Of a DNA stretch of 64,000 nucleotides, positions 323 through 15,806 are shown piece by piece (within the stretch, counting starts at the first letter, position 1; each line of letters starts with the position of its first letter). The stretch comes from Gluconacetobacter tumulisoli. GTDB taxonomy: Bacteria > Pseudomonadota > Alphaproteobacteria > Acetobacterales > Acetobacteraceae. The position numbers were made by a program, and so were the translations under genes. Below the pieces are notes generated by a model, which was given only the letters and a program-made list of their open reading frames with translations, was not told where the DNA came from and ran no database searches. The DNA is taken from contig NZ_JABEQM010000016.1 in NCBI RefSeq assembly GCF_014174155.1, forward strand, positions 1-64,000, written 5' to 3'.

Positions 323-1759
323 TTGTCTGCTTTCACACCCCCTCCCCTCCCCCAAGCGACGCCAGCCCCCGGATCGCCGGATGCTTCTGCCGCGGACGGG
401 GCGCCCCCGTTCGCCGGGGGCAGACATGGCCTGCGGCGGATCTTCCGCAATCTGGGTGTCCTGCTGGGGGGACGGGCGATCAATGCACCGCTCAGCCTGC
501 TTCACGCCTCGCTCGCCATCCGGCTGCTGGGCGGATATGATTTCGGTCTTGTGGTCATGCTTTATGCGTTCGCACGCACGATCGGCGACCTGGTGGATTT
601 CCAATCCTGGCAGACCTTGCTGCAATACGGCTTTCGCCCGCTGGCCGATGGCGACCTGCGGCAGTTCCATCGCGTACTCCGCTTCAGCCTCGCCCTCGAC
701 CTGATCGGCGGAGTTGCCGGCGTGACCATCGCCCTGGTCGCCAGCCTGACCTTGGGATCGACATTGGGCTGGCCGCCAGCTCTCCACCCGATCGGCTCGA
801 TCTACTGCCTTTCGACTATCTTCATGGCTGCGGCCACACCCACCGGTGTCCTGCGGATCCTGAACCGCTTCGACCTTCTGGCAGTGCAGGGCACCGCCGC
901 GACGACCGTACGACTGGTGGGGACACTCGTCCTGCCTCTGGTCGGTGCCAGCTTCACCCACCTGGCCATCGCCTGGATGCTGGCCGAAGCTATATCCTGC
1001 GTCCTGCTGTTCGGGCTGGCATGGCGCGAATTGCGCAAGAAGGGTCTGACCCGCGATTTCTGGCGAACCACCCCCGACATACTCCCCGACCTGCTCCGCC
1101 GGAGAATCGGGCAGGATTTTCCCGGCATCTGGCGCTTCGCCTTCGTCACCAACGCCAATGCCACCCTATCCCTGGTGTTCAGCCACGCCACGACCCTGAT
1201 CGTCGGCAGCCGCTTGGGTCCCACCAGCGCGGGCTATTACCGGATCGCCAGCCAGATGGCGGCGGGCATCGCCAAGCCCGGCACATTGATGCAGCAGACG
1301 CTTTACCCCGAGATGGCGGCCCTGTGGCGAGACCGGGCGATCGGACGGATGTATCGCCTGGCCCTGCATACCAGCCTGGCGGCAGGCGGGATCGGGTGCC
1401 TGCTGATCGCTCTGGCCTACTGGCTGGGCGCTCCTCTTCTGGCCCTGGTCATCGGCACCCACGATCGGGCCGCGGTGACGATCATGCTCTGGCTGCTGGG
1501 GGCCGAGGTCATCGCGATCTGCGGCCTGCCGCTGGAACCCCTGCTGATGACGACGCGGCGGGCCGGCGCGGTGATGATCTCGCGCTGCGTCGACATGGTC
1601 TTCTTCCTGCCGACCTTGCTGATTTTCATCCGCCTGTATGGCCTGAACGGGGTAGGCCCGGCGACAGTCGGCGGGATGCTGCTGCTGATCCTGCTGCAAC
1701 TGGGGTTGGTGTTTCGCGCCCATGCCGCCATGACCCCGCCCGCCCCTGCCGAATCATAA
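323..1759 (+). CDS. Polysaccharide/lipid flippase, Wzx/MATE-like membrane protein
   Basis: The 478-residue product is a polytopic inner-membrane protein of the oligosaccharide-flippase (MOP superfamily) type. After a Pro/Ala-rich N-terminal tail of about 40 residues it has around twelve hydrophobic segments separated by short loops. Members of the family move lipid-linked saccharides across the inner membrane. The frame opens with TTG at 323, and no ATG occurs in frame until well inside the membrane domain. A weak AGGACAGG lies upstream, so the exact start is uncertain. It is followed after 6 bases by a CDP-glycerol-transferase-like gene and then lipid-activation genes, which suggests a role in moving or decorating an envelope glycolipid. 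The substrate cannot be read from the sequence. Confidence 0.75.
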   Translation: MSAFTPPPLPQATPAPGSPDASAADGAPPFAGGRHGLRRIFRNLGVLLGGRAINAPLSLLHASLAIRLLGGYDFGLVVMLYAFARTIGDLVDFQSWQTLLQYGFRPLADGDLRQFHRVLRFSLALDLIGGVAGVTIALVASLTLGSTLGWPPALHPIGSIYCLSTIFMAAATPTGVLRILNRFDLLAVQGTAATTVRLVGTLVLPLVGASFTHLAIAWMLAEAISCVLLFGLAWRELRKKGLTRDFWRTTPDILPDLLRRRIGQDFPGIWRFAFVTNANATLSLVFSHATTLIVGSRLGPTSAGYYRIASQMAAGIAKPGTLMQQTLYPEMAALWRDRAIGRMYRLALHTSLAAGGIGCLLIALAYWLGAPLLALVIGTHDRAAVTIMLWLLGAEVIAICGLPLEPLLMTTRRAGAVMISRCVDMVFFLPTLLIFIRLYGLNGVGPATVGGMLLLILLQLGLVFRAHAAMTPPAPAES

Positions 1760-1765
1760 GAACCG

Positions 1766-2899
1766 ATGCGTATCGTCTTCCCCTATATCGCCCAGCCCCA
1801 TCAGACCCTGCATTCGCTTCCGATCGCGCTGGAAATCGCCCGCCGCCATCCGGGCATCGCGGTGCATGTCGCCTGCCTGTCCCAGGAGCATGAGGATTAT
1901 GCCCGGCACCTGGCGAGCTTCTATCCGGATTCATCGGTGACATTCGACCGGCTGCACCTGCCCACCTTGCTGCGCCACCATATGGACCGACGGGGACAGG
2001 ACGTTCTGGTCAAAATGGGTGCGCTCTTTTATAACAAAAATTATTTCGCTGAATTTCAGGCCATTGTCGTACCTGAACGCACGTCGCTCTATCTTCGCAA
2101 GATGGGCGTACGCGCGCCGCGCCTGATCTGGACCCGCCACGGCGCCGGGGACAGGGCGATCGGCTTCGCGCAAGACGTACGGAATTTCGACTTCATCCTT
2201 ATGGCGGGACGAAAATTGGAAAACCGCCTCCTGGCGCAGGGGGCCTTGCGCCCCGGCCATTACGTCGCCGGAATTTACGCCAAGTTCGACATGGTCCGCC
2301 TCCTGCACCAGCAGGCTCCGCCCCTGTTCCCGAATGGACGACCAACAGTTCTGTATAATCCGCATTTCAGCCCGAAGCTGTCCTCGTGGCATACGTTCGG
2401 GTTAAAGGTGTTGGATTACTTTGCCTCCCAGGATCAGTATAATCTTGTTTTCGCCCCGCACTACAGACTGTTCGACGCAAGGCGCGCCGAGGCTGCGGAA
2501 CTCGTCCGCGCCTATGCGGGCGTACCCCATATGCGGATCGACCCCGGCAGTCCCCGGAGCATCGACATGACCTATACGATGGGGGCCGACCTCTATCTGG
2601 GTGACGTCAGCAGCCAGGTCGCCGAATTCCTGGTCACCCCCCGGCCATGCCTGTTCCTGGATGCGCACGCCACAGACTGGCGCGACAATCCGGACTACCG
2701 GTTCTGGACGCTGGGCAACGTCGTCACATCCACCACTTCACTCGGACAGTCCATCGACAGGGCATACACCATGCAGGCAGGTTTCCTTGAACGGCAAAAA
2801 TCGTATATACGCGACACGTTCGGCCTCTCGGATGCCGGCCCCACCGCGCCTGTCGGCGCGGACGCCATCGTAGAATTTCTCCGGAAGGCCGGTCCATGA
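1766..2899 (+). CDS. CDP-glycerol glycerophosphotransferase-like GT-B protein
   Basis: This 377-residue soluble protein resembles the CDP-glycerol:poly(glycerophosphate) glycerophosphotransferase group. The N-terminal half has a Rossmann-like opening (MRIVFPYIAQPH), and the C-terminal half carries a nucleotide-binding-type segment, GDVSSQVAEFL near residues 275-285, matching the TDxSS region of that family. Enzymes of this group transfer glycerol-phosphate or related phospho-alcohol groups. It has no signal peptide, so a cytoplasmic site is expected. Its stop overlaps the start of the downstream acyl-AMP ligase (ATGA), which implies coupled translation. In this context it could add a polar head group to a lipid, which is inference; other GT-B glycosyltransferase roles are possible. 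Confidence 0.6.
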   Translation: MRIVFPYIAQPHQTLHSLPIALEIARRHPGIAVHVACLSQEHEDYARHLASFYPDSSVTFDRLHLPTLLRHHMDRRGQDVLVKMGALFYNKNYFAEFQAIVVPERTSLYLRKMGVRAPRLIWTRHGAGDRAIGFAQDVRNFDFILMAGRKLENRLLAQGALRPGHYVAGIYAKFDMVRLLHQQAPPLFPNGRPTVLYNPHFSPKLSSWHTFGLKVLDYFASQDQYNLVFAPHYRLFDARRAEAAELVRAYAGVPHMRIDPGSPRSIDMTYTMGADLYLGDVSSQVAEFLVTPRPCLFLDAHATDWRDNPDYRFWTLGNVVTSTTSLGQSIDRAYTMQAGFLERQKSYIRDTFGLSDAGPTAPVGADAIVEFLRKAGP

Positions 2900-4686
2900 C
2901 CGTCTTTCCCGCAATCGACACGCTCCAGGTGGAAGATTCGTTACCGGACATGACATGTCATCCGTCTCCGACAGATTCTGGCCAGGCGCGACGCCTGGGC
3001 GATTTTGCAACGTTTCCGGACGCGCTGGACTACGCCGCCCTTGGTGACGCCGGGTTCAACATCTACTCGGGACGCGGCCAATTGCTGGAGGCCCTGCCTT
3101 ACCGTACGTTGCGCGCGCAGGCGCACGACGTCGCGCGTCGCCTGCTGGCCCGCGGCCTGCAGCCGGGTGATCGGGTCGCCATTGTCGCGGAAAGCGACGG
3201 CGACTTCGCCCGCACGTTCTTCGGCTGCCAGTATGCCGGACTGGTGCCGGCCCCCCTGCCCCTTCCGGTCGCATTCGGCGGGCGCGAGGGATATGTCGCC
3301 ACCTTGCGTGGCATGATCGAGAGCGCCGGGGCCACGGCCGTCGTCATTCCCGACATCATCGCATCATGGACCGGCGACATCGTCGCGGGATTTGACCTGC
3401 GCTTCGCCGGCAGCCCGGCCGATCTGCTGGGCCTGCCGATCGGCGAGGCCGAACTGCCCGTCGTGTCGCCCGACGACCTGTCCTATCTCCAGTTTTCATC
3501 CGGCAGCACCCGCTTCCCGATGGGGGTTGCCGTCACCCAGAAATCCGGCATGGCCAATGCCCGCGCCATTGCCCGGGACGGGCTGAAAGTCCGCGAGACC
3601 GGCGATCGCTGCGTATCGTGGCTGCCGCTCTATCACGACATGGGGCTGGTGGGTTTCTTCCTGACGCCGGTGACCTGCCAGTTGACCGTGGACATGCTGC
3701 CTACCCGGGAATTCGCCCGGCGCCCACATGTCTGGCTGGACCTGATCAGCCGCAATCGTGGCACGATTTCCTACAGCCCCTCCTTCGGCTACGAACTATG
3801 CGCCCGGCGGGCCTCCTCCATTTCGCTCGACCTGTCCAGCTGGCGTGTCGCGGGTATCGGCGGCGACATGATCCGCCATCACATCCTGGAAGAATTCGCC
3901 GAGCGTTTCGCCGCCTCCGGCTTCGACAGCCATGCGTTCACCGCCAGCTACGGCATGGCGGAGGCCACTCTGGCCATCAGTTTCGTCCCGCTGGGCTCCG
4001 GCATCCAGACCGATACGGTCGATTTGCGGTTTCTCGAAACCCAGGGCATCGCACGGCCGTCGAACGACCCGTCCCATGCCCTGCGGACATTCGTCCGATG
4101 CGGGCAGGTCCTCGCAGAGCATGATCTGGAGGTCCGCGACCCGTCGGGACACCCGCTTCCCGACCGCAAGGTGGGTACGATCTTCGTACGCGGCCCCAGC
4201 CTGATGCGCGGCTATTTCAACCAGCCGCAGGACACCCTGCGCGTCCTGGACCGGGACGGATGGTTGAATACCGGCGACCTGGGCTACATGCTCGACGGAC
4301 AGGTGGTCGTGACCGGGCGCGCCAAGGACCTGATCATCATCAACGGCCGCAATATCTGGCCGCAGGACCTGGAATGGTCGGCGGAGACCGAGATCGGCGC
4401 CCTGCGCAGCCGCGACGTCGCCGTCTTCTCGGTCGACCAGGAAAAGGGCGAGAAGGTCGTGGCGCTGATCCAGTGCCGGGCTTCGTCGCCCGAGGCGCGG
4501 GAACTGCTGCGCAACGAGGCCGCGAACCTGTTCCGCCGGCAGCACGGGGTGGACGTCTCGGTCATCCTGGTGCCGCCGCACACATTGCCCCAGACGTCGT
4601 CCGGCAAGCTGACGCGCGCACGGGCCAAGGCGATGCTGCTGTCGGGGGCATTCGACACCCTTACCGAGACCGCCTCGGTCGCCTGA
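2896..4686 (+). CDS. Fatty-acyl-AMP ligase / acyl-ACP synthetase
   Basis: This 596-residue member of the adenylate-forming superfamily has the features of fatty-acyl-AMP ligases. The ATP-binding A3 motif is LQFSSGSTRFPMG (about residues 198-210), the segment WLPLYHDMGLVGF follows, an acceptor-type GDLGYM motif lies in the second half, and the C-terminal catalytic lysine is K571 in SSGKLTR. It probably activates a fatty acid to the adenylate and passes it to the carrier protein encoded just downstream. The start overlaps the previous stop and has GGAAGG 7 bases upstream. Bacterial ceramide pathways pair such a ligase with a dedicated ACP and serine palmitoyltransferase, as here. Acyl-CoA formation cannot be excluded from sequence alone. 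Confidence 0.85.
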   Translation: MTVFPAIDTLQVEDSLPDMTCHPSPTDSGQARRLGDFATFPDALDYAALGDAGFNIYSGRGQLLEALPYRTLRAQAHDVARRLLARGLQPGDRVAIVAESDGDFARTFFGCQYAGLVPAPLPLPVAFGGREGYVATLRGMIESAGATAVVIPDIIASWTGDIVAGFDLRFAGSPADLLGLPIGEAELPVVSPDDLSYLQFSSGSTRFPMGVAVTQKSGMANARAIARDGLKVRETGDRCVSWLPLYHDMGLVGFFLTPVTCQLTVDMLPTREFARRPHVWLDLISRNRGTISYSPSFGYELCARRASSISLDLSSWRVAGIGGDMIRHHILEEFAERFAASGFDSHAFTASYGMAEATLAISFVPLGSGIQTDTVDLRFLETQGIARPSNDPSHALRTFVRCGQVLAEHDLEVRDPSGHPLPDRKVGTIFVRGPSLMRGYFNQPQDTLRVLDRDGWLNTGDLGYMLDGQVVVTGRAKDLIIINGRNIWPQDLEWSAETEIGALRSRDVAVFSVDQEKGEKVVALIQCRASSPEARELLRNEAANLFRRQHGVDVSVILVPPHTLPQTSSGKLTRARAKAMLLSGAFDTLTETASVA

Positions 4687-4816
4687 CCGGGTGGCCCCGG
4701 CGCACGCGATCCATACTGGTCAACGGACCGGATTTCGATCATAAGGGCGTCCTTCTTCCCAGGACAGGCGACGATGCGCTGCCTGCGCCGGGAATTGAGG
4801 CCGCCAGTTGTGACAT

Positions 4817-4855
4817 GCGGGTCGCCCCGGGCCTTGCCATCGGGGAACGACCCGC
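4817..4855 (+). promoter_or_regulatory. RNA hairpin abutting the ACP ribosome-binding site
   Basis: GCGGGTCG (4817-4824) pairs exactly with CGACCCGC (4848-4855), and CCCCG (4825-4829) pairs with CGGGG (4841-4845). Two A residues bulge on the 3' side and the loop is 11 bases. The stem ends directly against AGAAGGA (4856-4862), the Shine-Dalgarno of the ACP gene. There is no T tract, so it does not look like an intrinsic terminator. It may set translation or mRNA stability of the ACP-spt half of the operon. Confidence 0.5.
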
Positions 4856-4872
4856 AGAAGGATGCAAATACA

Positions 4873-5124
4873 ATGAGTGAAACGGTTGCAGACGTCTCTG
4901 CCCTGATCGTCCAGACGCTGCTGGCGAACCCCAAGGTTCCCCGCGACATCAACGGCAGCAGCAAGATCGTCGAGGACCTGGCCTTCGATTCACTCGCCGT
5001 GATGAATTTCGTCATGGAAATCGAGGATTCGCTCGACGTATCCGTCCCCCTCGACCGTCTTGCCGATATCCGGACCATCGACGACCTGGCCGCCTGCATC
5101 GTGTCCCTGAAGCAGGCCTCCTGA
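4873..5124 (+). CDS. Acyl carrier protein dedicated to the spt module
   Basis: This 83-residue acyl carrier protein carries the phosphopantetheine site FDSLAVMN with Ser40, in the expected helix after a short N-terminal domain. The ATG at 4873 has AGAAGGA 10 bases upstream and gives a normal ACP length. An in-frame ATG at 4774 would add 33 basic, Cys-containing residues not seen in ACPs, so I rejected it. It lies between the acyl-AMP ligase and serine palmitoyltransferase genes, 3 bases before the latter. It is distinct from the housekeeping acpP at 19189-19428. It probably carries the fatty acyl group used for long-chain-base formation. Confidence 0.88.
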   Translation: MSETVADVSALIVQTLLANPKVPRDINGSSKIVEDLAFDSLAVMNFVMEIEDSLDVSVPLDRLADIRTIDDLAACIVSLKQAS

Positions 5125-5127
5125 CCC

Positions 5128-6342
5128 ATGTCGATCTTCAGCAAATACGACGGCCTGGCCCAATCGCTGGCCGCCGTGACGGCGGATGGCGGCCGCAATC
5201 CGTTCGCCGTCGTCATCGACCGTCCGCTCTCCTCGACCGTCGGCCTGATCGAGGGGCGCGAGACGCTGCTGTTCGGCACCAACAACTATCTGGGCCTCAG
5301 CCAGTCCGAAGCGGCGATCGAGGCTGCGATCGCCGCCGCGCGGACCCACGGCGTCGGCACCACCGGATCTCGGATCGCCAACGGCACGCAGGGTCTGCAC
5401 CGCCAGTTGGAGGAGCGGATCGCCGCCTATTTCCAGCGCCGCCACTGCATGGTGTTCTCCACGGGATACCAGGCCAATCTGGGCATGATCTCGGCGCTGG
5501 CCGGCAAGGACGACTACCTGCTGCTGGACGCCGACAGCCACGCCAGCATCTATGACGGCAGCCGCCTGGGCCACGCGCAGGTCATCCGTTTCCGCCACAA
5601 CGACCCCGAGGACCTGCGCAAGCGCCTGCGCCGCCTGGAGGGCACGCCCGGGGCCAAGCTGATCGTCGTCGAAGGCATCTATTCGATGATGGGCGACGTC
5701 GTCCCCATGGCTGAATTCGCCGCCGTGAAGCGGGAAGCCGGCGCCTGGCTGCTGGCGGACGAGGCCCATTCCTTCGGCGTGATGGGCGCGCACGGACGCG
5801 GCGTGGCCGAGGCCGACGGCGTCGAAGGCGATGTCGATTTCGTGGTCGGCACGTTCTCCAAGAGCCTCGGTACGGTGGGCGGATACTGCGTGTCCGACCA
5901 TGACGGGCTGGACCTGATCCGGCTATGTTCGCGCCCCTACATGTTCACGGCGTCGCTGCCGCCCGAAATCATCGCGGCGACGATGGCGGCGCTGGATGAG
6001 ATGGGGCGCCGTCCCGAACTGCGGCATACCCTGATGGACAATGCGCGTCGCCTGTATGCGGGATTGAATGCGGCCGGCCTGCGTACCGGCCCGCAGGCCA
6101 GCCCCGTCGTCTCGGTCATCCTGGACGAGGTGGATCAGGCCGTGCGTTTCTGGAACCGGCTTCTGGACCTGGGCGTCTACGTCAATCTCAGCCTGCCGCC
6201 CGCGACACCGGACCAGCATCCGCTGCTGCGAACCTCGGTCATGGCGACGCACACCCCGGCCCAGATCGACCGCGCGGTCGACATCTTCGCCACCGTGGCC
6301 CGCGAGTTCGACCTTATGCGCCCGGCGGCCGCGACCGCCTGA
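5128..6342 (+). CDS. spt: Serine palmitoyltransferase
   Basis: This 404-residue member of the alpha-oxoamine synthase family (PLP-dependent, fold type I) condenses an acyl thioester with L-serine to 3-ketosphinganine, the first step of sphingolipid synthesis. The PLP lysine is K245 in GTFSKSLGTVGGY. The following RPYMFTASLPP is typical of bacterial serine palmitoyltransferases and less so of BioF. Further family segments are FGTNNYLGL near the N-terminus and DEAHSFGVMG before the lysine. The location, 3 bases after a dedicated ACP gene and behind an acyl-AMP ligase, matches the bacterial ceramide gene set. Its 3' end overlaps the convergent nucleotidyltransferase-like gene by 29 bases. The alternative, 8-amino-7-oxononanoate synthase, is less likely given motif and context. 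Confidence 0.9.
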   Translation: MSIFSKYDGLAQSLAAVTADGGRNPFAVVIDRPLSSTVGLIEGRETLLFGTNNYLGLSQSEAAIEAAIAAARTHGVGTTGSRIANGTQGLHRQLEERIAAYFQRRHCMVFSTGYQANLGMISALAGKDDYLLLDADSHASIYDGSRLGHAQVIRFRHNDPEDLRKRLRRLEGTPGAKLIVVEGIYSMMGDVVPMAEFAAVKREAGAWLLADEAHSFGVMGAHGRGVAEADGVEGDVDFVVGTFSKSLGTVGGYCVSDHDGLDLIRLCSRPYMFTASLPPEIIAATMAALDEMGRRPELRHTLMDNARRLYAGLNAAGLRTGPQASPVVSVILDEVDQAVRFWNRLLDLGVYVNLSLPPATPDQHPLLRTSVMATHTPAQIDRAVDIFATVAREFDLMRPAAATA

Positions 6343-7291
6343 ACACGCCGGCCCGCCGCAGGGTCAGCAGCAGCCACGGCAGGCAGATCAGGGGATGGCG
6401 CTCGGCAAAGGGCGTCAACGCAAGGTCGATCCCCGTGTGGCGCCTGATCTTCCACGCCACGTAACGTGCCCCGCCCGCGAACGTGAAAGCGGCCTTGGCC
6501 AGCCGGACGATGTTCAGGGGGCGCCCCAACGTATCGCGCAGGCGCCAACGCCGGAGCGCCCGGGCACGGACGCCGGTACGGACTTCGGGACGCAGGATGG
6601 TTCCCCGCTGGCTGAAGGACAGGCCCGACGCCGTCCAGGCCGCGATCAGCAGGTCCCGGTAGCGATCCCCCTGCCCCCCCAGCAGGCTGCGGGCGCGCCC
6701 CCTGGACTCGACCCGCAATTCGGCGCCGTAGGTCCGTCTGAGAAGCGCCTCCCAGTAGGTTTCGGCGGTTCCTTCCACCGGCCCCAGGCACGCCGCCCAC
6801 CAGGCGGCCACCGCGACCGCACGCACCAGGCAGCGCAGGATGTCGTCGGCGGCAACGGAATCACGCACCCAGACCAGGCGGACCGGCTGGCAGAACCGGG
6901 CCCACAACGTGGTATCGACGGTGCGCTGTCCGGTCATGGCGCGAAACTGCGCGATGGTCACGATCGCGACCTTCGCCCGGATGGTCGCGCCATCGATGAC
7001 CTGTTCGTGATATTCGACGTTCGGCGGCAGCAGGGCGTTCGCGACCTGCGCGGTCCGCCCGCGCGGCCAGTCGGACTGGCGTTCCACCACGACGTAGAAA
7101 TCCAGGATCCCCTCGGGATCCGCCTGCCGGAGGGCGGACCCGTAGAACAGCACCCCCATGACCCGGGCCTGTCCGACCAGACGCGCGGCGAAGGCGGCGA
7201 CGGATGGGCTGACCGGCTGGACCAGTTCGCCGGTCAGCAGGTGGGCCACCCGTCCAGCGGCCGCATCCTGGAACCGGACCGGCGTGTTCAT
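6314..7291 (-). CDS. Nucleotidyltransferase-like protein of the lipid locus
   Basis: This 325-residue protein has a segment LFYGSALRQADPEGILDFYV (residues 48-67) that resembles the GS...D motif of Pol-beta-type nucleotidyltransferases. The second acidic residue of the usual DxD is not evident (D64-F-Y), so catalytic competence is uncertain. The rest is basic and alpha-helical with a hydrophobic stretch near the C-terminus, suggesting membrane association. It overlaps the upstream lipid-kinase gene by 4 bases (ATGA), so the two are translationally coupled. A role in building a phospho-headgroup on the product of the flanking sphingolipid genes is inference. I do not recognise a named orthologue. 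Confidence 0.6.
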   Translation of the reverse strand: MNTPVRFQDAAAGRVAHLLTGELVQPVSPSVAAFAARLVGQARVMGVLFYGSALRQADPEGILDFYVVVERQSDWPRGRTAQVANALLPPNVEYHEQVIDGATIRAKVAIVTIAQFRAMTGQRTVDTTLWARFCQPVRLVWVRDSVAADDILRCLVRAVAVAAWWAACLGPVEGTAETYWEALLRRTYGAELRVESRGRARSLLGGQGDRYRDLLIAAWTASGLSFSQRGTILRPEVRTGVRARALRRWRLRDTLGRPLNIVRLAKAAFTFAGGARYVAWKIRRHTGIDLALTPFAERHPLICLPWLLLTLRRAGVFRRSRPPGA

Positions 7292-8262
7292 GCCGTCCCC
7301 CGGATGAAATCGAAGGCCGGCCCGGCCGACAGGAATGTCTGCCCGTCGGGACCGGAATCGAAGATTTCGCCATCCAGCACGAAATCCTCGCCGATCCTGA
7401 GCGCCAGCCTGTCGGTCTGGCCGCGTTCATAGGCCGGACAGTCGTCCAGCCAGTCCGGCGACCGACCACGCAGGAGGCTCCAGGTCGCGGCAGCCAGGCG
7501 GGGCGGAAAGGCCGCGACATTCAGATAGGACATTCCCTCCGCCGCCGTCCGGGGGGCGAACGGCCACATCCGGCGTGGAAGACAATGCAGGGTGGTGGCA
7601 AGAAACAGGAAACAATCCTGCGTCCGCGCGGCCTCGTTTCCGACCGCCAGCGTGATCCTGTTGCCGCCCAGCCATTTCCGGCGCGTGGAGCGGAACGCCA
7701 GGCGCCCGATCGACGACGCGATCGCCACCCCGACCGCGATGTCATGGGAAAACCGGTCGATGGCGGGACGATGCGCAATGCCGACGCCCCGCGTGAAGGC
7801 CGCCGCCCCATGGAACATTCCCAGGGCCGCGGGGCGATCCGGATCGGACCAGCGGACCGCCAGCACCTCGCGCCGGACCGTGGCGCGCCGCAACCCGTCA
7901 TCGCGGGCCAGGGCGCCCAGCCGGTCGAGCGCAGCCATCCCGCGCAGTCCAAAGCCGACATCGCTTGCGATCAGGTTGGTGTTGCCGGACGGCAGGACCG
8001 CCAGGGCAGGCAGCGCGTCGGCGGGGTAGTGACGATATATGGCGGACATGACTTCGCTGACGGTACCGTCCCCACCGTCGATCGCGATCGTCCGGACCTC
8101 ACGCCGGGCCAGCTCCGCCACGGCATCCAGCACATGCTCGCGACCCGAAGGACGCACGAACAGCGGGCCAAGAAGCCGGGCCGCACTATTGCGGAACGTC
8201 CCGTCATCCTTGCCATTCCGCCGGCTGCGCGGATTGTGAATCAAGGCAAAACGTTCGGTCAC
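7288..8262 (-). CDS. Diacylglycerol-kinase-family lipid kinase
   Basis: This 324-residue protein has the diacylglycerol/sphingosine kinase catalytic domain. The ATP-binding motif IDGGDGTVSEVM is at residues 61-72 and the domain starts IHNPRSRRNG. A later region, VGNEAARTQ, matches the second half of the fold. Such enzymes phosphorylate diacylglycerol, sphingoid bases or ceramide at the inner face of the membrane. A bacterial ceramide kinase of distant relationship is known from the Caulobacter ceramide-phosphoglycerate pathway. Position beside spt makes a ceramide or sphingoid-base substrate plausible, but this is not proven. It is the first gene of a two-gene minus-strand unit and is divergent from the phosphoesterase-LptFG operon across 195 bases. 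Confidence 0.8.
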   Translation of the reverse strand: MTERFALIHNPRSRRNGKDDGTFRNSAARLLGPLFVRPSGREHVLDAVAELARREVRTIAIDGGDGTVSEVMSAIYRHYPADALPALAVLPSGNTNLIASDVGFGLRGMAALDRLGALARDDGLRRATVRREVLAVRWSDPDRPAALGMFHGAAAFTRGVGIAHRPAIDRFSHDIAVGVAIASSIGRLAFRSTRRKWLGGNRITLAVGNEAARTQDCFLFLATTLHCLPRRMWPFAPRTAAEGMSYLNVAAFPPRLAAATWSLLRGRSPDWLDDCPAYERGQTDRLALRIGEDFVLDGEIFDSGPDGQTFLSAGPAFDFIRGTA

Positions 8263-8457
8263 GCGGTAGCGGTCCTTTTCCGGTTGTCATCCACTCGTCC
8301 GGCCATAAGCCGCGTTCCGAATGGTATTGCAAGGCAGGAAAACCGGGCCCTTCCCCTCGACAGAGCCGGTGGAAGGCGGCATGTCCGGACCCGGGCGACG
8401 GGACCCTGTACGCCACGGTCCGCCGTCCGCCCGGACCGCCACCCCGCGGAGGCCACC

Positions 8458-9363
8458 GTGACCGAGATCATACTCGCCCATCTGTCGGACCCGCACATTT
8501 CACATGACAAATTGTGTCTGCCGCCGGCGGCCCTGCTGAACAAGCGGGCGTTGAGCCACCTGTCATGGCGACGCAAACGCCGCTTCCTCCATGTCGGCGC
8601 GATGCTGGACAGGGTGGTGGCGGACCTGCGCGCCGCCGCCCCGGACGTTGTGGCCCTGACCGGCGACCTGACCAATCTGGGCCTGCCCGAGGAATGCCGG
8701 CAGGCGGCAGACTGGCTGCAGCGGAACATGCCCGCGCGAACGATCGTGATTCCCGGCAACCATGACATGCTTGTGTCCGAACGCTGGTCGGACACGCTCG
8801 GGCTATGGGCGCCGTGGATGGTCCCGGCCCCGGACGATTTTCCCTTCGTGCGGCGGATCGGGCCGCTGGCGCTGATCGGCGTGAATTCCGCGCGGCCAAT
8901 GCCCTGGTTTTCCGCGGCGGGACGGATCGGACGCCCCCAGGCCGACCGCCTGGCCGCCATTCTGCGCGACACCGGCCGGGAGGGCCTGTGCCGCATCGTC
9001 CTGATCCATCACCCGCCCGTGGCGGGCATCGTGCCCCGCCGGAAGGCCCTGCTGGATCGTGCGCTGTTCGGCGACGCCATCGCCCGCGCGGGGGCGGAGC
9101 TGGTGCTGCACGGGCACTCCCATTTTTCGGGACTGTCTTCGCTGCCCGGCCCCCTGGCGCCCGTACCGGTCCTGGGGGTGGCATCGGCATCAATGCGGTC
9201 CGACCGGGCGGCGCGCGCGGCAGCATGGCAGCGGATCCGGATCACGACGACGGAACGCGATTTTCATATCGAAATCCGGCGGCGGATCTTCCGTCCCGAC
9301 ATCCCCATGCAGGAGCTTCCGCCGACGCTCTTCACCGCCTATCGCATCCGACCGCCGATTTGA
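8458..9363 (+). CDS. Calcineurin-like metallophosphoesterase
   Basis: This 301-residue protein has the five blocks of the calcineurin-like fold: LSDPH (residues 9-13), TGDLTN (68-73), PGNHD (99-103), LIHHPP (182-187) and HGHSHFSG (218-225). These supply the two-metal site. I chose the GTG at 8458 because GGAGG (8448-8452) stands 5 bases before it and the protein then starts right at the first beta-strand, as is usual. The open frame extends much further upstream but has no family match there. It is the first gene of a plus-strand operon with LptF/LptG-like permeases and a lipid hydroxylase. It may dephosphorylate a lipid intermediate, or may be a CpdA-type nucleotide phosphodiesterase. Confidence 0.8.
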   Translation: MTEIILAHLSDPHISHDKLCLPPAALLNKRALSHLSWRRKRRFLHVGAMLDRVVADLRAAAPDVVALTGDLTNLGLPEECRQAADWLQRNMPARTIVIPGNHDMLVSERWSDTLGLWAPWMVPAPDDFPFVRRIGPLALIGVNSARPMPWFSAAGRIGRPQADRLAAILRDTGREGLCRIVLIHHPPVAGIVPRRKALLDRALFGDAIARAGAELVLHGHSHFSGLSSLPGPLAPVPVLGVASASMRSDRAARAAAWQRIRITTTERDFHIEIRRRIFRPDIPMQELPPTLFTAYRIRPPI

Positions 9364-9379
9364 GTATGTGTGGGCCGAC

Positions 9380-10600
9380 ATGACGCGCGCACCTTCTCTT
9401 CCGTCGTTCGTCCGGAAACTCGCCGCGGGGACGCTGGACCACTATCTGATCGCGCAGACCCTGCCCCCGTTCGCCCTGGCACTCGGCGTCGTGATGACGG
9501 CGCTGCTGCTGGAACGGCTGCTGGTCCTGTTCAACGTACTGGCGGCGGATGGCGGCACGCTGCGAACCTTCTTCGGCCTGCTGGCGGACCTGGTGCCGCA
9601 TTATCTCGGCCTGGCGCTTCCGGCGGCGATCTGCGTCAGCGTGTTCTCGGTGGTCCGCAGGATGAGCCAGAACAACGAAATCGACGCCCTGATGGCCAGC
9701 GGCGTGTCCCTGTCGCGGATAGCGCGGCCGTTTGTCGCAATGGGGGTCATGCTCGGCCTGCTCAGCTTCCTGCTGTACGGGTTCATTCAACCATATGCCC
9801 GCTACAATTTCCGACATGGCCTATACTTGGCCAGCCATGCGGGCTGGGCGCCGCATCTGCAGGGGCGGATGTTCGCGACACCGTCCGGCGCCCTGATGCT
9901 GACCGCCGACCGGGTCGAGGGGGCGGGAACGCTGCTGTTCCATGTCTTCATCCGCGACAGGACCGGCGAACTGGAACGCGACATCACCGCCGATAGCGGG
10001 ACGCTGCAGATGACGGACGACCGGTCGTCCGTCCGACTGGACCTCGCACATGGCGTGATCGTCACCGACCGCCATGACGACCGCCCCACCCTGACGACGT
10101 TCGACACGACGACCCGCATCCTCCAAAGCGATCATCACGGCGGCACCTTCCGCCATCGGGGAAACGACGAACGCGAACTGACGGTGCCGGAACTGCGCCA
10201 GGCCATCCGTCATCATGACCCGGCGATCCGCCGGTCCCATCTGGTGGCGGAACTGCATTTCCGCCTGGCCCGGGCCATGGCCATTCCGTTCATTCCGGTC
10301 CTGGCCTGCGCCCTGGCGGGCATGGCCAAGCGGCAGCGGCGGAACCTGGGCCTGCCGATCGCGGCCATCAGCCTTGTGGGCTTCGACCATGCGCTCCAGC
10401 TGGGCCTCAGCCTGGTCGCCAGCCGCGGCATGTCGCCCTGGCTGGTGATCTGGGGGCCGTTCGTCATCTTCTGCGGCGCCTGCGTATGGCTGCTCGTCCG
10501 GCGAAGCGGGACAGCCGGCGCGGGATGGTGGTCCCTGATGCGACGCTTCGCACGACGCGGACAGGCCGTGGCCGGTCCGGCGACGGACACCAGCCGATGA
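9380..10600 (+). CDS. LptF-like permease (YjgP/YjgQ family)
   Basis: This 406-residue protein has the LptF/LptG architecture: three N-terminal transmembrane segments (about 30-130), a periplasmic beta-jellyroll-type domain (about 140-290) and three C-terminal segments. The family segment SQNNEIDALMASGVS lies after TM2-3, where the coupling helix to LptB is. LptF and LptG form the inner-membrane part of the machine that extracts LPS. The start ATG at 9380 is 16 bases after the phosphoesterase stop. The gene overlaps the LptG-like gene by 4 bases. It sits among sphingolipid genes with no lptA, lptB, lptC or lptD nearby, so a paralogue devoted to another glycolipid is possible. Confidence 0.85.
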   Translation: MTRAPSLPSFVRKLAAGTLDHYLIAQTLPPFALALGVVMTALLLERLLVLFNVLAADGGTLRTFFGLLADLVPHYLGLALPAAICVSVFSVVRRMSQNNEIDALMASGVSLSRIARPFVAMGVMLGLLSFLLYGFIQPYARYNFRHGLYLASHAGWAPHLQGRMFATPSGALMLTADRVEGAGTLLFHVFIRDRTGELERDITADSGTLQMTDDRSSVRLDLAHGVIVTDRHDDRPTLTTFDTTTRILQSDHHGGTFRHRGNDERELTVPELRQAIRHHDPAIRRSHLVAELHFRLARAMAIPFIPVLACALAGMAKRQRRNLGLPIAAISLVGFDHALQLGLSLVASRGMSPWLVIWGPFVIFCGACVWLLVRRSGTAGAGWWSLMRRFARRGQAVAGPATDTSR

Positions 10601-11709
10601 CCCCTCCCCCTCTGCCGATCGGATCGAGTCGCGGGGTGCTGCTGCGCTACCTGTCGCGTGAACTGGTGTCGCGCGTGCTGGCGACCGGCCTGATCCTGGT
10701 CGCACTGATGGAGATCCTGGCGCTGCTGGAGCAGCTGACACCGATCCTGGACCGTCACCTGGGCGTCGGGGGCGTACTGTATTTCCTGGTGCTGCGCAGC
10801 CCCCTGCTGCTGGGCAGCGTCTTTCCGCTGGCGGTCCTGATCGGGGCACTGATCATGCTGGTGCAAATGACAACGGCGAACGAAATCGCGATCCTGCGCG
10901 CGGCCGGACTGTCGACCCACGCCCTGGTCCGGCTTCTCCTGCCCGGCGTCGTCGGGCTGGGCCTGGTCAGCGCCGTCATCGACGACCAGGTGACCCCCCG
11001 TGCCGAACTGGCGCTGGCACGCTGGTGGAACGCCACCGACCCGCATCCCGAATCCGGACGCGCGTTCTGGTTTCGGGCCGGCACGACGCTGATCGACGTC
11101 GGATACATCGCGGGGGGCGGCCGGATCGCCGGCAAGCTGGACCTGTATCGGCGCGATCCATCGGGACGGCTGACCAGCATCGTCCATATCGGGGACGCCC
11201 GTTTCGTCGACGGCGCATGGACGGGGGGCGACGGGCGGCAACTGACGATATCGCAGGCGACGGTGGACCCGGGCGCCTTCACCGCCCCGCCCGCCGAGGC
11301 CGGATGGCCGTCCGGGCTGCGTCCGGCGGACCTCGTGCGGCTGTCCATGGACAGCCCGCCGCTCGCCGCCTCGACGATGATCTCGATCCTGATGGACCGC
11401 GCGCCCTCCAGCCAGCCCCCCAGCTATTTTCGCACCGCATTGCTGGAACGCGCGCTGTTACCGCTGACATTCATCGTCATGCTATTATTGGCGGTGCCGG
11501 TGGTTTATATCCCGCCTCGTACCGGCGCGCGAAGCTGGCTTCCGGTCTGGTGTCTGGGCGCGGGCCTGCTGTTTATCGTCTTCCAGGGATTGATGCGGGC
11601 CCTGGGCAATGCCGGCACCCTGCCGGCCCTGGCCGCGACCCTTCCGGGCATCGCGATTTTCGCATTCGCAATCGGTGCCCTGATGTTGAGGATAGAAGAA
11701 AAATCATGA
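10597..11709 (+). CDS. LptG-like permease (YjgP/YjgQ family)
   Basis: This 370-residue partner of the preceding permease has the same layout: an N-terminal membrane bundle (about 15-130), a periplasmic domain (about 140-265) and three C-terminal membrane helices. The family segment TTANEIAILRAAGLS corresponds to the coupling-helix region. I set the start at the ATG overlapping the previous stop (ATGA at 10597), not the upstream in-frame ATG at 10486 inside the neighbour. Its own stop overlaps the hydroxylase start. LptF and LptG normally act as a heterodimer with an LptB ATPase, which is not encoded in this window. The likely cargo is LPS or, by context, a sphingolipid. Confidence 0.85.
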   Translation: MTPPPLPIGSSRGVLLRYLSRELVSRVLATGLILVALMEILALLEQLTPILDRHLGVGGVLYFLVLRSPLLLGSVFPLAVLIGALIMLVQMTTANEIAILRAAGLSTHALVRLLLPGVVGLGLVSAVIDDQVTPRAELALARWWNATDPHPESGRAFWFRAGTTLIDVGYIAGGGRIAGKLDLYRRDPSGRLTSIVHIGDARFVDGAWTGGDGRQLTISQATVDPGAFTAPPAEAGWPSGLRPADLVRLSMDSPPLAASTMISILMDRAPSSQPPSYFRTALLERALLPLTFIVMLLLAVPVVYIPPRTGARSWLPVWCLGAGLLFIVFQGLMRALGNAGTLPALAATLPGIAIFAFAIGALMLRIEEKS

Positions 11710-12485
11710 GCGGTACCCTGCGCAACGCGAATCTCCGGACGGGACGCAGCTTCGACCTGGGGAAAATGAACCTCCGGCAGCTCTGGATCGCCTACCTGAC
11801 CTATCCGACCATCATCCTCTACATCGTCCTCGCCATCGCCAGCTTCGCGTTCCTGGTCCGGCATTTCCCCGGAATCGGACAGACACTCGTGGCCGCCGCC
11901 GCGGTCGTCGCGGTCTATCCCCTGGCATGGTACGCAATACACCGCTTCATCCTGCACGGGCGTTTCCTGTATCGGATGAAATGGACGGCCGGGCTGTGGA
12001 AGCGCATCCATTTCGATCATCATCAGGATCCGCATCTGCTGGACGTCCTGTTCGGCTCGCCGCTGAACACGATCCCGACGATTGCGATCATCACGATCCC
12101 CGTCGGCTACCTGATCGGCCATCTGGGGGGGGCCGCAGCGGCCTTCGGAACGGGGCTTGCGATCACCTGCATCTATGAATTCTTCCATTGCATCCAGCAC
12201 CTGAACTACAAGCCCAGGATGCGCTGGATCCAGAAGATGAAGCAGCGGCATGTCCTGCATCATTTCCATGACGAGGACGGCAATTACGGCATCACCAGCT
12301 TCGTCGTCGACCGGATCTTCGGCAGTTATTACGTCGATGCGCGCGCCCGGCCCCGCAGCCCCAGCGTCTTCAACCTGGGGTATGACGTGGCGGAGGCCAA
12401 CCGCTATCCCTGGGTGATGGACCTGACCGGCACCCCCCCGCGCGACCGGCCCGACGGCGCGTCGTCGAACAGGAACGCCGCGTGA
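11706..12485 (+). CDS. Fatty acid/ceramide hydroxylase (sterol-desaturase superfamily)
   Basis: This 259-residue integral membrane protein carries the histidine clusters of the di-iron fatty acid hydroxylase superfamily: H79-x4-H84, H102-xx-HH(105,106) with H110 in HFDHHQDPH, H161-xxx-H165, and H182-xx-HH(185,186) with H188. The spacing resembles fatty acid 2-hydroxylases, which act on ceramide or its acyl chain at the membrane. Free ceramides of acetic acid bacteria are known to carry 2-hydroxy fatty acids, which fits this gene lying in an spt locus. It overlaps the LptG-like gene (ATGA) and the NTP-transferase gene (GTGA). The true start at 11706 replaces a much longer upstream open frame that is only LptG shadow. 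Confidence 0.82.
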   Translation: MSGTLRNANLRTGRSFDLGKMNLRQLWIAYLTYPTIILYIVLAIASFAFLVRHFPGIGQTLVAAAAVVAVYPLAWYAIHRFILHGRFLYRMKWTAGLWKRIHFDHHQDPHLLDVLFGSPLNTIPTIAIITIPVGYLIGHLGGAAAAFGTGLAITCIYEFFHCIQHLNYKPRMRWIQKMKQRHVLHHFHDEDGNYGITSFVVDRIFGSYYVDARARPRSPSVFNLGYDVAEANRYPWVMDLTGTPPRDRPDGASSNRNAA

Positions 12486-13249
12486 CGTCCGGCGGCACGC
12501 TGAACGTCCTGATCCTGGCGGGCACGCGCGCAGGGACACGCGACCCGATGGCCCAGGCCGCCGGCGTCTCGCACAAGGCGATCCTGCCCGTCGCCGGCCG
12601 GCCGATGATCGCCCGGGTCGTCGACGCGCTGTCGGCCGTCCCACGGATCGGCCGCATCGCGGTCAGCATCGAGGATCCGGACATCCTGACCGGCCTTCTG
12701 GATCGCCCTGTTACGATCCTGCCGCCGGCCCAGGGCCCCAGCGGCAGCGTAATGGAGGCGATCGGCACATTGGGCACGCCCCTGCTGGTCACGACGGCCG
12801 ACCATGCGCTGCTGCGTCCGGAATGGATCGAATCGTTCCTGTCCGCCGCCGGCGACACCTGCGACGTCGCGGCCGGCATCGCGATGGAACGGGACATCCG
12901 CCGCGATGTCCCCGGCACGAAACGCACGATGATCCGCCTGGCCGACGGGGCGTTTTCAGGTTGCAACCTGTTCCTGTTCCGCACCCCGGCAGCGATCGGC
13001 GTCGTCCGGCTCTGGCAACGCCTGGAACAGGAGCGCAAGCGACCCGTCCGCATGGCCCGCCTGCTGGGGCCGGGGATCCTGCTGCGCTACCTGGTGGGAC
13101 GCCTGACGCGCCAGGCCCTGTGTGCGCGGATCGAACGGCTGGCCGGCGCGTCCGCTCGCCTGGTCCCCTTGCCCGACGGACGCGCCGCCGTGGACGTGGA
13201 CAAGCCGGCCGACCTCGATCTGGTACAATCGATCCTCGCGGCCGCCTGA
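12482..13249 (+). CDS. MobA-like NTP transferase
   Basis: This 255-residue protein of the nucleotidyl/sugar-1-phosphate transferase fold begins at a GTG overlapping the hydroxylase stop. The N-terminal nucleotide-binding loop is LILAGTRAGTRDPMA (about 10-24), followed by HKAILPVAGRPMI (31-43). A metal-binding segment, TTADHALL (about 101-108), takes the place of the usual DxD. Family members activate sugars, sugar acids or alcohols as CDP, GDP or UDP derivatives. Its place between a lipid hydroxylase and a glycosyltransferase suggests that it makes an activated headgroup precursor. The substrate is not evident. Confidence 0.7.
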   Translation: MTSGGTLNVLILAGTRAGTRDPMAQAAGVSHKAILPVAGRPMIARVVDALSAVPRIGRIAVSIEDPDILTGLLDRPVTILPPAQGPSGSVMEAIGTLGTPLLVTTADHALLRPEWIESFLSAAGDTCDVAAGIAMERDIRRDVPGTKRTMIRLADGAFSGCNLFLFRTPAAIGVVRLWQRLEQERKRPVRMARLLGPGILLRYLVGRLTRQALCARIERLAGASARLVPLPDGRAAVDVDKPADLDLVQSILAAA

Positions 13250-13257
13250 CCTGAACC

Positions 13258-14367
13258 ATGCGTATCGCCTATGTCATCAACTCGCTGGAAGGGGGCGGCG
13301 CCGCCTTCCCTGTGCCTGACATTACCCGGGTGATGCGGCAGGAGGGGCATGAGGTCGAACTGTTCGCGCTGCTCCGCGGCGACGGACGCGCCCTGTCGGC
13401 CATCGAACGGACAGGTCTGAAGGTCCATATCCGCGACGGGGACAAAAGGGACCATGTCGCCGCCCTGCGCTGGCTGGACCGCCAGATGGGGGCCTATCGC
13501 CCCGACCTGCTGTGGACGTCGCTGACCCGCGCCACGGCGATGGGACAACTTGTCGGGTTGAAGCGGCGGATTTCCGTCGTCAGCTGGCAGCATAATGCAG
13601 GACTGAGCGAGGCCAATATCCGGCTTCTGCGGACGTTGCGGGGGCTGACGCGGCTGTGGGTCGCCGATTCGGGCTGCGTGCTGGATTTCGCCCGCCGCAG
13701 GCTGGGAATACCCGAGGATCGCCTCGCCTCCTGGCCGATTTTTCGAGCCAATCCCGAATTTCCGGTGGCCCGCCCCTGGCAGTCCGGCGACATCGTGCGA
13801 ATCGGATCGCTGGGCCGCCTGCACCGGGCCAAGGGCTACGATGTCCTGTGCGCCGCCCTGGCGATCCTGAAGACCCACGGCACGCTCGCGCCGTTCGAGA
13901 TCACCGTCTCGGGCGAAGGGGCGATGCGGCCGCAGCTGGAATCCCTGATCCGCGACAACCGCCTGACGACGCTTCGTCTGCCGGGGTTCAACGAACGCGT
14001 GCCGGACTTCCTGGCGGGGCAGCACCTGTACGTGCAGCCGTCGCGACGCGAAGGCCTGTGCATCGCCATGCATGAGGCCATGCAGGCCGGCCTGGGCGTC
14101 GTGGCATCGTCGGTCGGCGAAATGCCCTACACGATCGAGGAGGGTATCTCCGGCCATGTCGTGCCCCCCCAGGACCCGACGGCCCTGGCGCAGGCCCTGG
14201 CGGCGGTCCTGCACCATCCGGAGCGTCTCGCCGGCCTGGGACAGGCCGCCCGCACGCGGGTACTGACACGATTCGACCCGGCACGCTTCGACGCGGCGGG
14301 GCAGGCCATCCTCCAACGCATCGGCCGCCAGGTCACGTTCCCTCCCGCAGACTATTCCGCGGGATGA
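13258..14367 (+). CDS. GT4-type glycosyltransferase
   Basis: This 369-residue retaining GT-B glycosyltransferase has the N-terminal acceptor-domain start MRIAYVINSLEGGGAA, a mid-protein IGSLGRLHRAKGYD at the domain junction, and the donor-site EX7E motif in REGLCIAMHEAMQAG. It lies 8 bases after the NTP transferase gene and closes the lipid operon. It probably adds a sugar to the lipid product before or after flipping. No signal peptide or membrane helix is seen, so it should act at the cytoplasmic face. Donor and acceptor are unknown. Confidence 0.78.
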   Translation: MRIAYVINSLEGGGAAFPVPDITRVMRQEGHEVELFALLRGDGRALSAIERTGLKVHIRDGDKRDHVAALRWLDRQMGAYRPDLLWTSLTRATAMGQLVGLKRRISVVSWQHNAGLSEANIRLLRTLRGLTRLWVADSGCVLDFARRRLGIPEDRLASWPIFRANPEFPVARPWQSGDIVRIGSLGRLHRAKGYDVLCAALAILKTHGTLAPFEITVSGEGAMRPQLESLIRDNRLTTLRLPGFNERVPDFLAGQHLYVQPSRREGLCIAMHEAMQAGLGVVASSVGEMPYTIEEGISGHVVPPQDPTALAQALAAVLHHPERLAGLGQAARTRVLTRFDPARFDAAGQAILQRIGRQVTFPPADYSAG

Positions 14368-15017: not shown

Positions 15018-15806
15018 ATGTCAGACGCCATCCTGTGCCGGTTCGAAGCCGCCCGTTCCATCGTCCGGGACGCCGCCGACCTCGCCATGTCCATGCGTCC
15101 CGCCTCCGGCGGCCCCTCCGGTACCCAGAAGAGCGCCCAGGACTGGCTGACCGAGGCCGACGGGGCGGTGGAGGCCCTGATTTCCACCCGAATCGGCGCC
15201 TTGTTCCCCGAGGACGGTTTCCAGGGCGAGGAAGGGGGCCGGACCCGCACCGGCCGCCTGCGCTGGATCGTGGACCCGATCGACGGCACGTCGAATTTCG
15301 CGCGCGGGCGCAACCGCTGGTGCGTATCGCTCGGCCTTCTGGAAGATGACCTGCCCGTCGCGGGGATCATCCAGGCCCCGGCCCTGAACGAGACCTATAC
15401 GGCGGTGCGCGGCCGGGGCGCATTCCTCAACGGCCGGCCGATCCATGCCTCGCCAGTCGACGACACGCGTTCTGCAATGATCGAGATGGGATGGAGCAGC
15501 CGCGTCCCCGCGGGCGTGTTCGAGGACAAGGTCGCGACGATTCTGCGGCTGGGCGCGATGCCCCGGTCCGGCGGGTCGGGCGCCCTCGCGCTGGCCGACG
15601 TAGCCTGCGGTCGCCTGGACGGTTACCTGGAAATGGTCATCAACATCTGGGACGTCGCGGCGGCCCTGGTCATCCTGGACGAGGCCGGGGCCCGGACCTC
15701 GCCATTCGTGCGTGACGGCGGGCTGGAACGCGGAATCACCATCCTTGCCGCCGCGCCGCGAATCGCGGACGATCTGGCGGCGGCGCTCGACGTTCCGCTC
15801 GGCTGA
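15018..15806 (+). CDS. Inositol-monophosphatase-family phosphatase
   Basis: This 262-residue phosphatase has the lithium-sensitive phosphatase motifs: TEAD (45-48), GEEGG (70-74), the signature DPIDGTSNF (86-94) and INIWDVAA in the C-terminal half, which supplies the last metal ligand. Family members hydrolyse inositol phosphate, histidinol phosphate, fructose-1,6-bisphosphate or 3'(2')-phosphoadenosine phosphates. Sequence alone does not separate these. Histidine auxotrophy rescue (HisN type) or a SuhB-like role are both possible. It is flanked by gaps of 106 and 144 bases, so it is probably transcribed separately. Confidence 0.85.
   Translation: MSDAILCRFEAARSIVRDAADLAMSMRPASGGPSGTQKSAQDWLTEADGAVEALISTRIGALFPEDGFQGEEGGRTRTGRLRWIVDPIDGTSNFARGRNRWCVSLGLLEDDLPVAGIIQAPALNETYTAVRGRGAFLNGRPIHASPVDDTRSAMIEMGWSSRVPAGVFEDKVATILRLGAMPRSGGSGALALADVACGRLDGYLEMVINIWDVAAALVILDEAGARTSPFVRDGGLERGITILAAAPRIADDLAAALDVPLG

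Follow-up and report, generated by a model that had tools for sequence, protein, structure and literature searches.

The 64,000-nucleotide stretch of Gluconacetobacter tumulisoli DNA analyzed here (the window; positions 1 to 64,000 of contig NZ_JABEQM010000016.1, our C16, in a genome of 3.96 Mb) carries at positions 323-14367 a locus of 13 genes built around a serine palmitoyltransferase gene, spt. We consider this locus to be probably a phosphosphingolipid cluster of the Caulobacter type in variant form, with a dedicated LptF/LptG (LptFG) export pair and with a short-chain dehydrogenase/reductase (SDR), encoded elsewhere in the genome, standing in for the reductase CerR. The cluster type is already known; what appears to be new, judging from the comparisons below, is the SDR for CerR, the Tam41 fold of one headgroup enzyme, and an LptFG copy-number rule that takes in a putative inositol lipid module. 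An earlier sequence-only reading of this DNA had suggested that the locus might be a make-decorate-export system for one sphingolipid. Each of its genes was confirmed in place, and its list of functions stood apart from two names that called for refinement, the number of genes rising from 12 to 13. In what follows, genomes, contigs and compared loci carry G, C and L numbers, G000 being the G. tumulisoli genome itself.

Gene content and conservation of the spt locus

The core of the locus consists of aasR (2896-4686), acpR (4873-5124) and spt (5128-6342), all on the plus strand. Spt, with K245 in the motif GTFSKSLG, scores 645 bits against the NCBIfam model NF047599 (cut-off 500), and its closest solved relatives are serine palmitoyltransferases (PDB 2x8u, E 3e-123). 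As the sequence-only reading held, it lies next to its own acyl carrier protein (ACP) and an acyl-AMP ligase: AcpR, whose start is inferred, matches PF00550 (E 1.5e-9) and has the serine in a DSL motif, and AasR, a fatty acyl-AMP ligase of the AasR (acyl-ACP synthetase) type, matches PF00501 and scores 908 bits against NF006624 (cut-off 600).

Co-conservation was assessed in 44 Acetobacteraceae loci (L008-L051) drawn from seven genera, taken from the top 80 in a list of 211 matches to spt; the remaining 36 of the 80 are gammaproteobacterial and were excluded. Nine genes, namely aasR, acpR, spt, a Tam41-like nucleotidyltransferase gene (ntlike), a lipid kinase gene, the metallophosphoesterase gene mpe, lptF2, lptG2 and a fatty acid hydroxylase gene, are present in all 44 loci, a recurrence well beyond chance. 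The nucleoside triphosphate (NTP) transferase gene ntp is found in 43, the single miss falling at a contig end, and the GT-B-type gene cdpg in 39, with three of the five misses at contig ends. Co-conservation with spt is thus supported for all of these, and not for the glycosyltransferase family 4 (GT4) gene, present in 22 of the 44 loci and in none of 18 loci from other alphaproteobacterial orders. Neither cerR nor cerS occurs in any of the 44 family loci.

The 18 outgroup loci, of at most 20 kb each, were selected from 39 spt-bearing genomes outside the family. At distances of up to 20 kb from spt they carry cerR (16), the Tam41-like gene (10), lptF2 (10), lptG2 (9), the hydroxylase gene (9), cerS (9), the kinase gene (8), mpe (8) and ntp (5), and none carries the right-hand neighbors of our locus that served as controls, imp, ysc84, yceG and fabF. 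In about half of these distant Alphaproteobacteria gene content is kept while gene order is reshuffled. A second sample of twenty further family loci was mixed in content: ntlike, kinase, mpe, lptF2 and lptG2 are all present in ten (L172, L178, L179, L182-L185, L188, L190, L191), four have inositol genes (L177, L180, L181, L189), and L186 and L187 have ntlike, kinase, hydroxylase and ntp genes, not the full set of ntlike, kinase, mpe, lptF2 and lptG2.

A screen of 150 family genomes, in which spt was called at E 1e-95 and the ntlike profile at 1e-25, found ntlike in 48 of 56 spt-positive and 1 of 94 spt-negative genomes; in that one, G294, the cluster is present with a divergent enzyme of the serine palmitoyltransferase (SPT)/BioF type. 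In some regions the gene caller gave genes on the wrong strand or no genes, and the conclusions rest on tblastn and profile searches.

A ceramide synthase homologue and a candidate reductase outside the locus

Ceramide synthase and the reductase of known pathways had been reported as not seen, which is true of the locus; for both, the genome has candidates. A CerS homologue is encoded at C9:115608-116729 (35% identity, with 369 of 380 residues of the Escherichia coli BL21 protein aligned), and CerS homologues were found in 13 of 13 genomes examined; with the C9 gene in hand, the idea that ceramide synthase is absent was rejected. The search for CerR-like genes ended differently, the G. tumulisoli genome having no match at E<=1e-40 (best match to the BL21 protein, E 4e-15). 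The best matches in ten Acetobacteraceae genomes range from E 3e-8 to 3e-15, compared with 1e-99 to 2e-137 in three gammaproteobacterial genomes. We did not accept the best Acetobacteraceae epimerase matches as CerR: of the two scanned, that of L103 scores above the HpnA cut-off, and the best match of G. tumulisoli (L095), an epimerase-family protein, reaches none of the NCBIfam cut-offs listed. Several of the weak matches look by eye like what we take to be complex I-type proteins.

In the cerS neighborhoods of relatives, an SDR gene lies head-to-head with cerS; the G. tumulisoli copy is at C10:31826-32584. Among 20 SDR-positive genomes viewed, the SDR gene is beside cerS in 18 (G001-G009, G033, G225, G294, G301, G309, G327, G334, G391, G411). 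With cut-offs of E 1e-42 for the SDR and 1e-40 for CerR, the 56 spt-positive family genomes divide into 15 with CerR only, 39 with the SDR only, none with both and two with neither (G319, G407). The SDR orthologues form a clade in a quick tree (Shimodaira-Hasegawa approximate likelihood ratio test, SH-aLRT, 97), and the YxxxK motif is present in every row; the SDR of L173 (40%) falls outside this clade and was not taken as the reductase of G319. An spt tree of 50 rows shows at least two changes from CerR to the SDR: one in the acetous clade, CerR being retained in its sister G386, and a second in G301. From the mutual exclusivity of SDR and CerR, the adjacency of SDR and cerS genes, and the SDR clade, we propose the SDR as the replacement reductase for the CerR step. 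That non-homologous proteins may take the place of CerR has been suggested in general terms (PMC11334938).

Four spt-negative genomes (G294, G309, G391, G411) also have the SDR, in each case beside cerS. In G294, G309 and G391 (L169, L192, L193) an SPT/BioF-type enzyme, 33-35% like Spt, adjoins the SDR-cerS pair and possibly provides an alternative route to sphingoid bases; of these three enzymes that of G294 alone was scanned against NCBIfam, and the stretch from G411 is a 3.9 kb contig. As further observations on these genes, Gluconacetobacter diazotrophicus (L138, L139) has two cerS copies, one linked to the SDR gene and one not, with a single cerS match in G. tumulisoli, and the CerR homologue of G352 (L195; 50%) has no spt match in the surrounding 20 kb.

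LptF/LptG pairs and a putative inositol lipid module

The genes lptF2 (9380-10600, plus strand; PF03739, E 2e-57) and lptG2 (10597-11709, plus strand; PF03739, E 3e-55) encode one of three LptFG pairs, six proteins in all, in the G. tumulisoli genome; LptF2, at 184.2 bits, falls below the NCBIfam LptF equivalog cut-off of 230. The canonical pair is beside LptD (L090; PF04453, E 1e-63). The third pair, at C2:149690-151883, is beside genes for a myo-inositol-phosphate synthase (MIPS), a CTP:inositol-1-phosphate cytidylyltransferase-like protein and a CDP-alcohol transferase. NCBIfam matches in this C2 module (INO1, E 3e-126; IPCT/DIPPS, 7e-33; archaetidylinositol-P synthase, 4e-15) are all below the curated cut-offs of the models, PF01658 is above its cut-off, and PDB 2xme was matched at E 2e-19. 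The module (L089:6067-13774) also includes radical SAM and GT4 genes and may be an inositol phospholipid or sphingolipid module. Inositol genes are beside spt in L177, L180, L181 and L189, and in L180 and L181 an LptFG pair is also next to acpR-spt. The inositol-type CDP-alcohol transferase occurs in 12 of 56 spt-positive versus 1 of 94 spt-negative genomes (G411), and among the spt-positive genomes in 7 of 8 without the Tam41-like gene versus 5 of 48 with it.

LptF/LptG copies were counted in 49 hand-picked family genomes. The spt-positive genomes that carry both modules (five) or the inositol module alone (seven) were all included, as were 20 of the 43 that carry the Tam41 module alone; to these were added 12 of the 90 spt-negative genomes without the SDR, the four spt-negative genomes that have it, and G319. 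Four copies are present in 20/20 genomes with the Tam41 module only and in 7/7 with the inositol module only, and two in 10 of the 12 lacking spt and SDR (one in G302, three in G329). Genomes with both modules have six copies (G000, G337, G445), eight (G334) or four (G327); of the remainder, G294 and G411 have four and G309, G391 and G319 have two. A rule of two copies plus two per headgroup module fits 45 of the 49.

In a quick tree of 125 proteins, built without bootstrap, LptF and LptG each split into canonical, type-2 and type-3 clades, with LptF2 and LptG2 in clades of their own (SH-aLRT 100 and 96). The spt-linked pairs of E. coli BL21 (L088:19924-22067) and Pseudomonas (L054:2557-4700) are of type 3, grouping with the inositol-linked pair and not with the alphaproteobacterial type 2, so that LptFG type does not follow headgroup chemistry strictly. 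We regard it as an even question whether G. tumulisoli runs three parallel LptFG exporters, one for lipopolysaccharide (LPS) and two for phosphosphingolipids, a ceramide-phosphate/phosphoglycerate type made here and an inositol phosphoceramide made via CDP-inositol by the C2 module, each module with its own pair and an unrelated SDR at the CerR step. If so, the number of such lipids exported by a cell would be predictable from its count of LptFG pairs.

Predicted headgroup enzymes and the hydroxylase

The gene first labeled nucleotidyltransferase-like, ntlike (6314-7291, minus strand), can be described more closely. The window protein has no Pfam match of its own, PF09139 (Tam41_Mmp37) matches 2 of 18 family members (best E 1e-6), and a PDB search with the family profile returned one weak nucleotidyltransferase match. 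Its AlphaFold2 model (predicted local distance difference test, pLDDT, 89) gave four Foldseek PDB matches at E<0.001, all of them Tam41, indicating the fold of that CDP-lipid synthase. The mitochondrial and bacterial CDP-diacylglycerol (CDP-DAG) synthases of this type (PDB 6ig4 and 7ecd; Foldseek E 1e-7 and 2e-6) share the fold at just 11-15% identity, whereas ntlike keeps company with a lipid kinase in sphingolipid clusters, a position from which its lipid is likely to be ceramide-1-phosphate. That kinase (7288-8262, minus strand; PF00781 DAGK_cat, E 2e-12; GGDGT at residue 63) is by family a probable ceramide kinase of the CpgB type. The ntlike protein is the probable equivalent of CpgC/CC_1161 of Caulobacter on the basis of its Tam41 fold, its position beside the kinase and the published description, not of sequence; the CDP-DAG synthase domain reported in CC_1161 (PMC11324152) supports the equivalence.

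The remaining candidates for headgroup modification are mpe (8458-9363, plus strand; GTG start inferred; PF00149, E 1e-10), CC_1158-like by family; ntp (12482-13249, plus strand; PF12804, E 6e-15), a MobA/CofC-like NTP transferase gene that is CC_1153-like by position and adjoins cerS in L127, L129, L132, L134 and L054; and cdpg (1766-2899, plus strand). The description of cdpg as CDP-glycerol-transferase-like survives weakly: the window protein matches PF04464 (CDP-glycerol glycerophosphotransferase) at E 0.048, 5 of 10 family members do so at E<=1 (best 0.0025), and a PDB search with the profile gave two weak, unrelated matches only. Its AlphaFold2 model (pLDDT 77.5) has UDP-GlcNAc 2-epimerases and glycosyltransferases as best Foldseek matches.

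The hydroxylase gene (FA_hydroxylase; 11706-12485, plus strand; PF04116, E 6e-21) encodes a protein with four histidine motifs. In the PDB this protein matches, at E<=0.01, only the yeast ceramide hydroxylase SCS7 (two structures, E 0.0014 and 0.0018), and its gene adjoins cerS in 8 of the 18 outgroup loci and in four further family loci. Ceramide is on these grounds its likely substrate, the choice of carbon being conjectural. In Caulobacter, ceramide hydroxylation is credited to the DesA-family protein CC_0202 (PMC11324152).

Discussion

The closest known system is the ceramide (di)phosphoglycerate cluster CC_1152-CC_1168 of Caulobacter crescentus, as described in PMC11324152, PMC10331486 (CpgB) and PMC12275187 (CpgD). 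Mutants in the matching genes lose ceramide phosphoglycerate (CPG) or ceramide diphosphoglycerate (CPG2), the CC_1158 mutant makes slightly less CPG2, and sphingolipid transport to the outer membrane is stated there as unknown (PMC11324152). Common to that cluster and our locus are aasR-acpR-spt, a lipid kinase, a CDP-lipid-synthase-like protein, a phosphoesterase, a second LptFG pair, a flippase and a CofC/MobA-like NTP transferase. Unlike the Caulobacter cluster, the locus lacks cerR and cerS, the genome having an SDR instead of a CerR match, and it has the hydroxylase, the extra GT-B (cdpg) and GT4 genes and a different gene order. The make-decorate-export description is partly supported, for a kind of system already published for Caulobacter (PMC11324152). 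Within the family, Gluconobacter oxydans has the same core, aasR-acpR-spt (GOX2058-GOX2056); the available text of PMC9386255 treats the ceramide backbone genes and does not cover the adjoining headgroup and export genes or the SDR. The C2 module resembles a related Bacteroidetes set of MIPS, NTP transferase and CDP-alcohol phosphatidyltransferase described in the part of PMC9246714 available, a study with Acetobacter malorum among its strains; it differs from that set in having LptFG in place of an HAD hydrolase, in belonging to Acetobacteraceae and in lying beside spt in some relatives. The papers listed in searches of the open-licence PubMed Central literature contained no usable lipid data on ceramides of acetic acid bacteria. 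Among those papers we also found none that describes an spt-linked module combining type-3 LptFG with inositol genes, a Tam41 fold for the ntlike protein, or the use of an SDR instead of CerR by Acetobacteraceae.

From the observed gene content, folds and families, co-occurrence, SDR/CerR exclusivity, and LptFG copy number and clades, we infer a pathway in which each reaction, and the cargo, is a prediction. AasR would load a fatty acid onto AcpR, and Spt would condense the AcpR-bound acyl group with serine to a 3-keto base, which the off-locus CerS (C9) may N-acylate and the off-locus SDR (C10), as the proposed replacement for CerR in this lineage, may reduce at the keto group. Ceramide hydroxylation by the hydroxylase would, as with SCS7, most likely affect the amide-linked chain. 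The kinase would yield ceramide-1-phosphate, on which the Tam41-like enzyme may spend CTP (giving CDP-ceramide or a related activated form) toward a phosphoglycerate-type headgroup, with ntp, mpe and cdpg products as putative further modifiers. LptF2-LptG2, with LptB and LptC, shared or otherwise, would lift the finished lipid from the inner toward the outer membrane. That all the genes act on one sphingolipid is likewise what we infer.

Three other explanations have to be weighed against this phosphosphingolipid pathway. The LptFG-like pair and the flippase might serve LPS or capsule, with spt, acpR, aasR and the kinase alone devoted to sphingolipids and the rest historical neighbors. LptFG are LPS exporters by name, flippases and GT4 enzymes are typical of surface polysaccharides, and GT4 is found in only 22 of the 44 family loci; yet a separate LptFG pair stands beside LptD elsewhere in the genome, the type-2 proteins form their own clades with a copy number that tracks the sphingolipid modules, and the gene content is kept despite shuffled order in distant Alphaproteobacteria, so that we consider this explanation quite improbable. 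We give even less weight to a cluster that makes a glycosylated rather than a phosphorylated sphingolipid, with GT4 and the flippase as the main decoration route. Both genes are present, and glycosphingolipids are known in Sphingomonas and Caulobacter, but the kinase and Tam41-like genes occur in 44/44 loci, compared with 22 for GT4.

The remaining alternative concerns the reductase: a distant CerR-like epimerase, GOX1849 or one of the epimerase-family/HpnA proteins, would perform the step, and the SDR would have some other role beside cerS. SDRs are common, the cerS-SDR pair sits among genes common to the acetous genomes compared, and GOX1849 is named as the epimerase/reductase homologue of Gluconobacter in the available text of PMC9386255. 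Set against this are the weak CerR matches of Acetobacteraceae (E 3e-8 to 3e-15), one scoring as HpnA (L103) and another below cut-offs (L095), and the SDR-cerS pairs that adjoin SPT-like genes in G294, G309 and G391. On this balance the epimerase is an unlikely candidate, and the GOX1849 assignment appears doubtful.

Several observations weigh against the phosphosphingolipid pathway with its SDR and dedicated exporter. The SDR is generic by sequence, with no named ketosphinganine reductase among the PDB matches listed; its gene is not adjacent to cerS in G. tumulisoli or its near relative G404; G319 and G407 have spt and neither an assignable CerR nor SDR, and G352 has CerR and no spt at E 1e-95. 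For the exporter, G327 and G399 keep the Tam41 gene in loci (L186, L187) without lptF2 and lptG2, G334 has one LptFG pair more than the rule predicts, and the Tam41/kinase cluster of Pseudomonas L054 goes with type-3 LptFG. As for the headgroup, G319 is spt-positive without a headgroup module, about half of the 18 outgroup loci lack headgroup or lptFG2 genes in the stretch compared, and 4 of the 20 further family loci (L173-L176) show neither headgroup module in theirs. None of the 13 genes encodes a CpgA-type CDP-alcohol transferase or a second NTP transferase (CpgD), and we accordingly do not predict CPG2 as such; the relatives L178, L179, L183 and L185 do have a CpgA-type gene. Equivalence to Caulobacter proteins rests on order, descriptions and folds, not on direct sequence comparison, and the family genomes are phylogenetically related and not independent, so that Fisher p values overstate independence and are descriptive only.

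With LptFG pairs and sphingolipid headgroup modules linked by a copy-number rule, acetic acid bacteria offer a way to test for a specific exporter. The SDR may be the ceramide reductase that has been missing from the pathway in many members of this family of food and plant bacteria, and the C2 module leads us to expect that inositol sphingolipids can be made through CDP-inositol in bacteria other than Bacteroidetes.

Variable genes and genomic setting

At the left edge of the locus, flip (323-1759, plus strand) encodes an MOP/Wzx-type flippase (PF01943, E 3e-8) and is a variable member. Flippase-like matches occur in 10 of the 44 family loci, nine of them upstream of cdpg, the position they take in 9/9 loci that extend 1.6 kb beyond cdpg; among the family loci compared, the flippase is absent from L032 and L048. 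At the right edge lies the GT4 gene (13258-14367, plus strand; PF13692, E 7e-26), and beyond it imp (15018-15806), which was dropped as a member on finding it in 22 of the 44 family loci and none of the 18 outgroup loci. With two of the 13 genes on the minus strand, the locus is a cluster and not a single operon; a 12-gene operon was rejected on account of these two antisense genes and the missing co-conservation of GT4.

The spt gene shares 99% identity with its Gluconacetobacter johannae counterpart, and the remaining cluster genes share 86-98% with theirs. Position 1 of the window is a contig end, and a contig end lies 2.8-5.5 kb upstream of spt in 38 of the 44 family loci. In the complete genome of G. 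diazotrophicus, ribosomal RNA genes are located upstream of the locus (L032:605-2408), an arrangement that would account for the contig breaks at its start in many assemblies.

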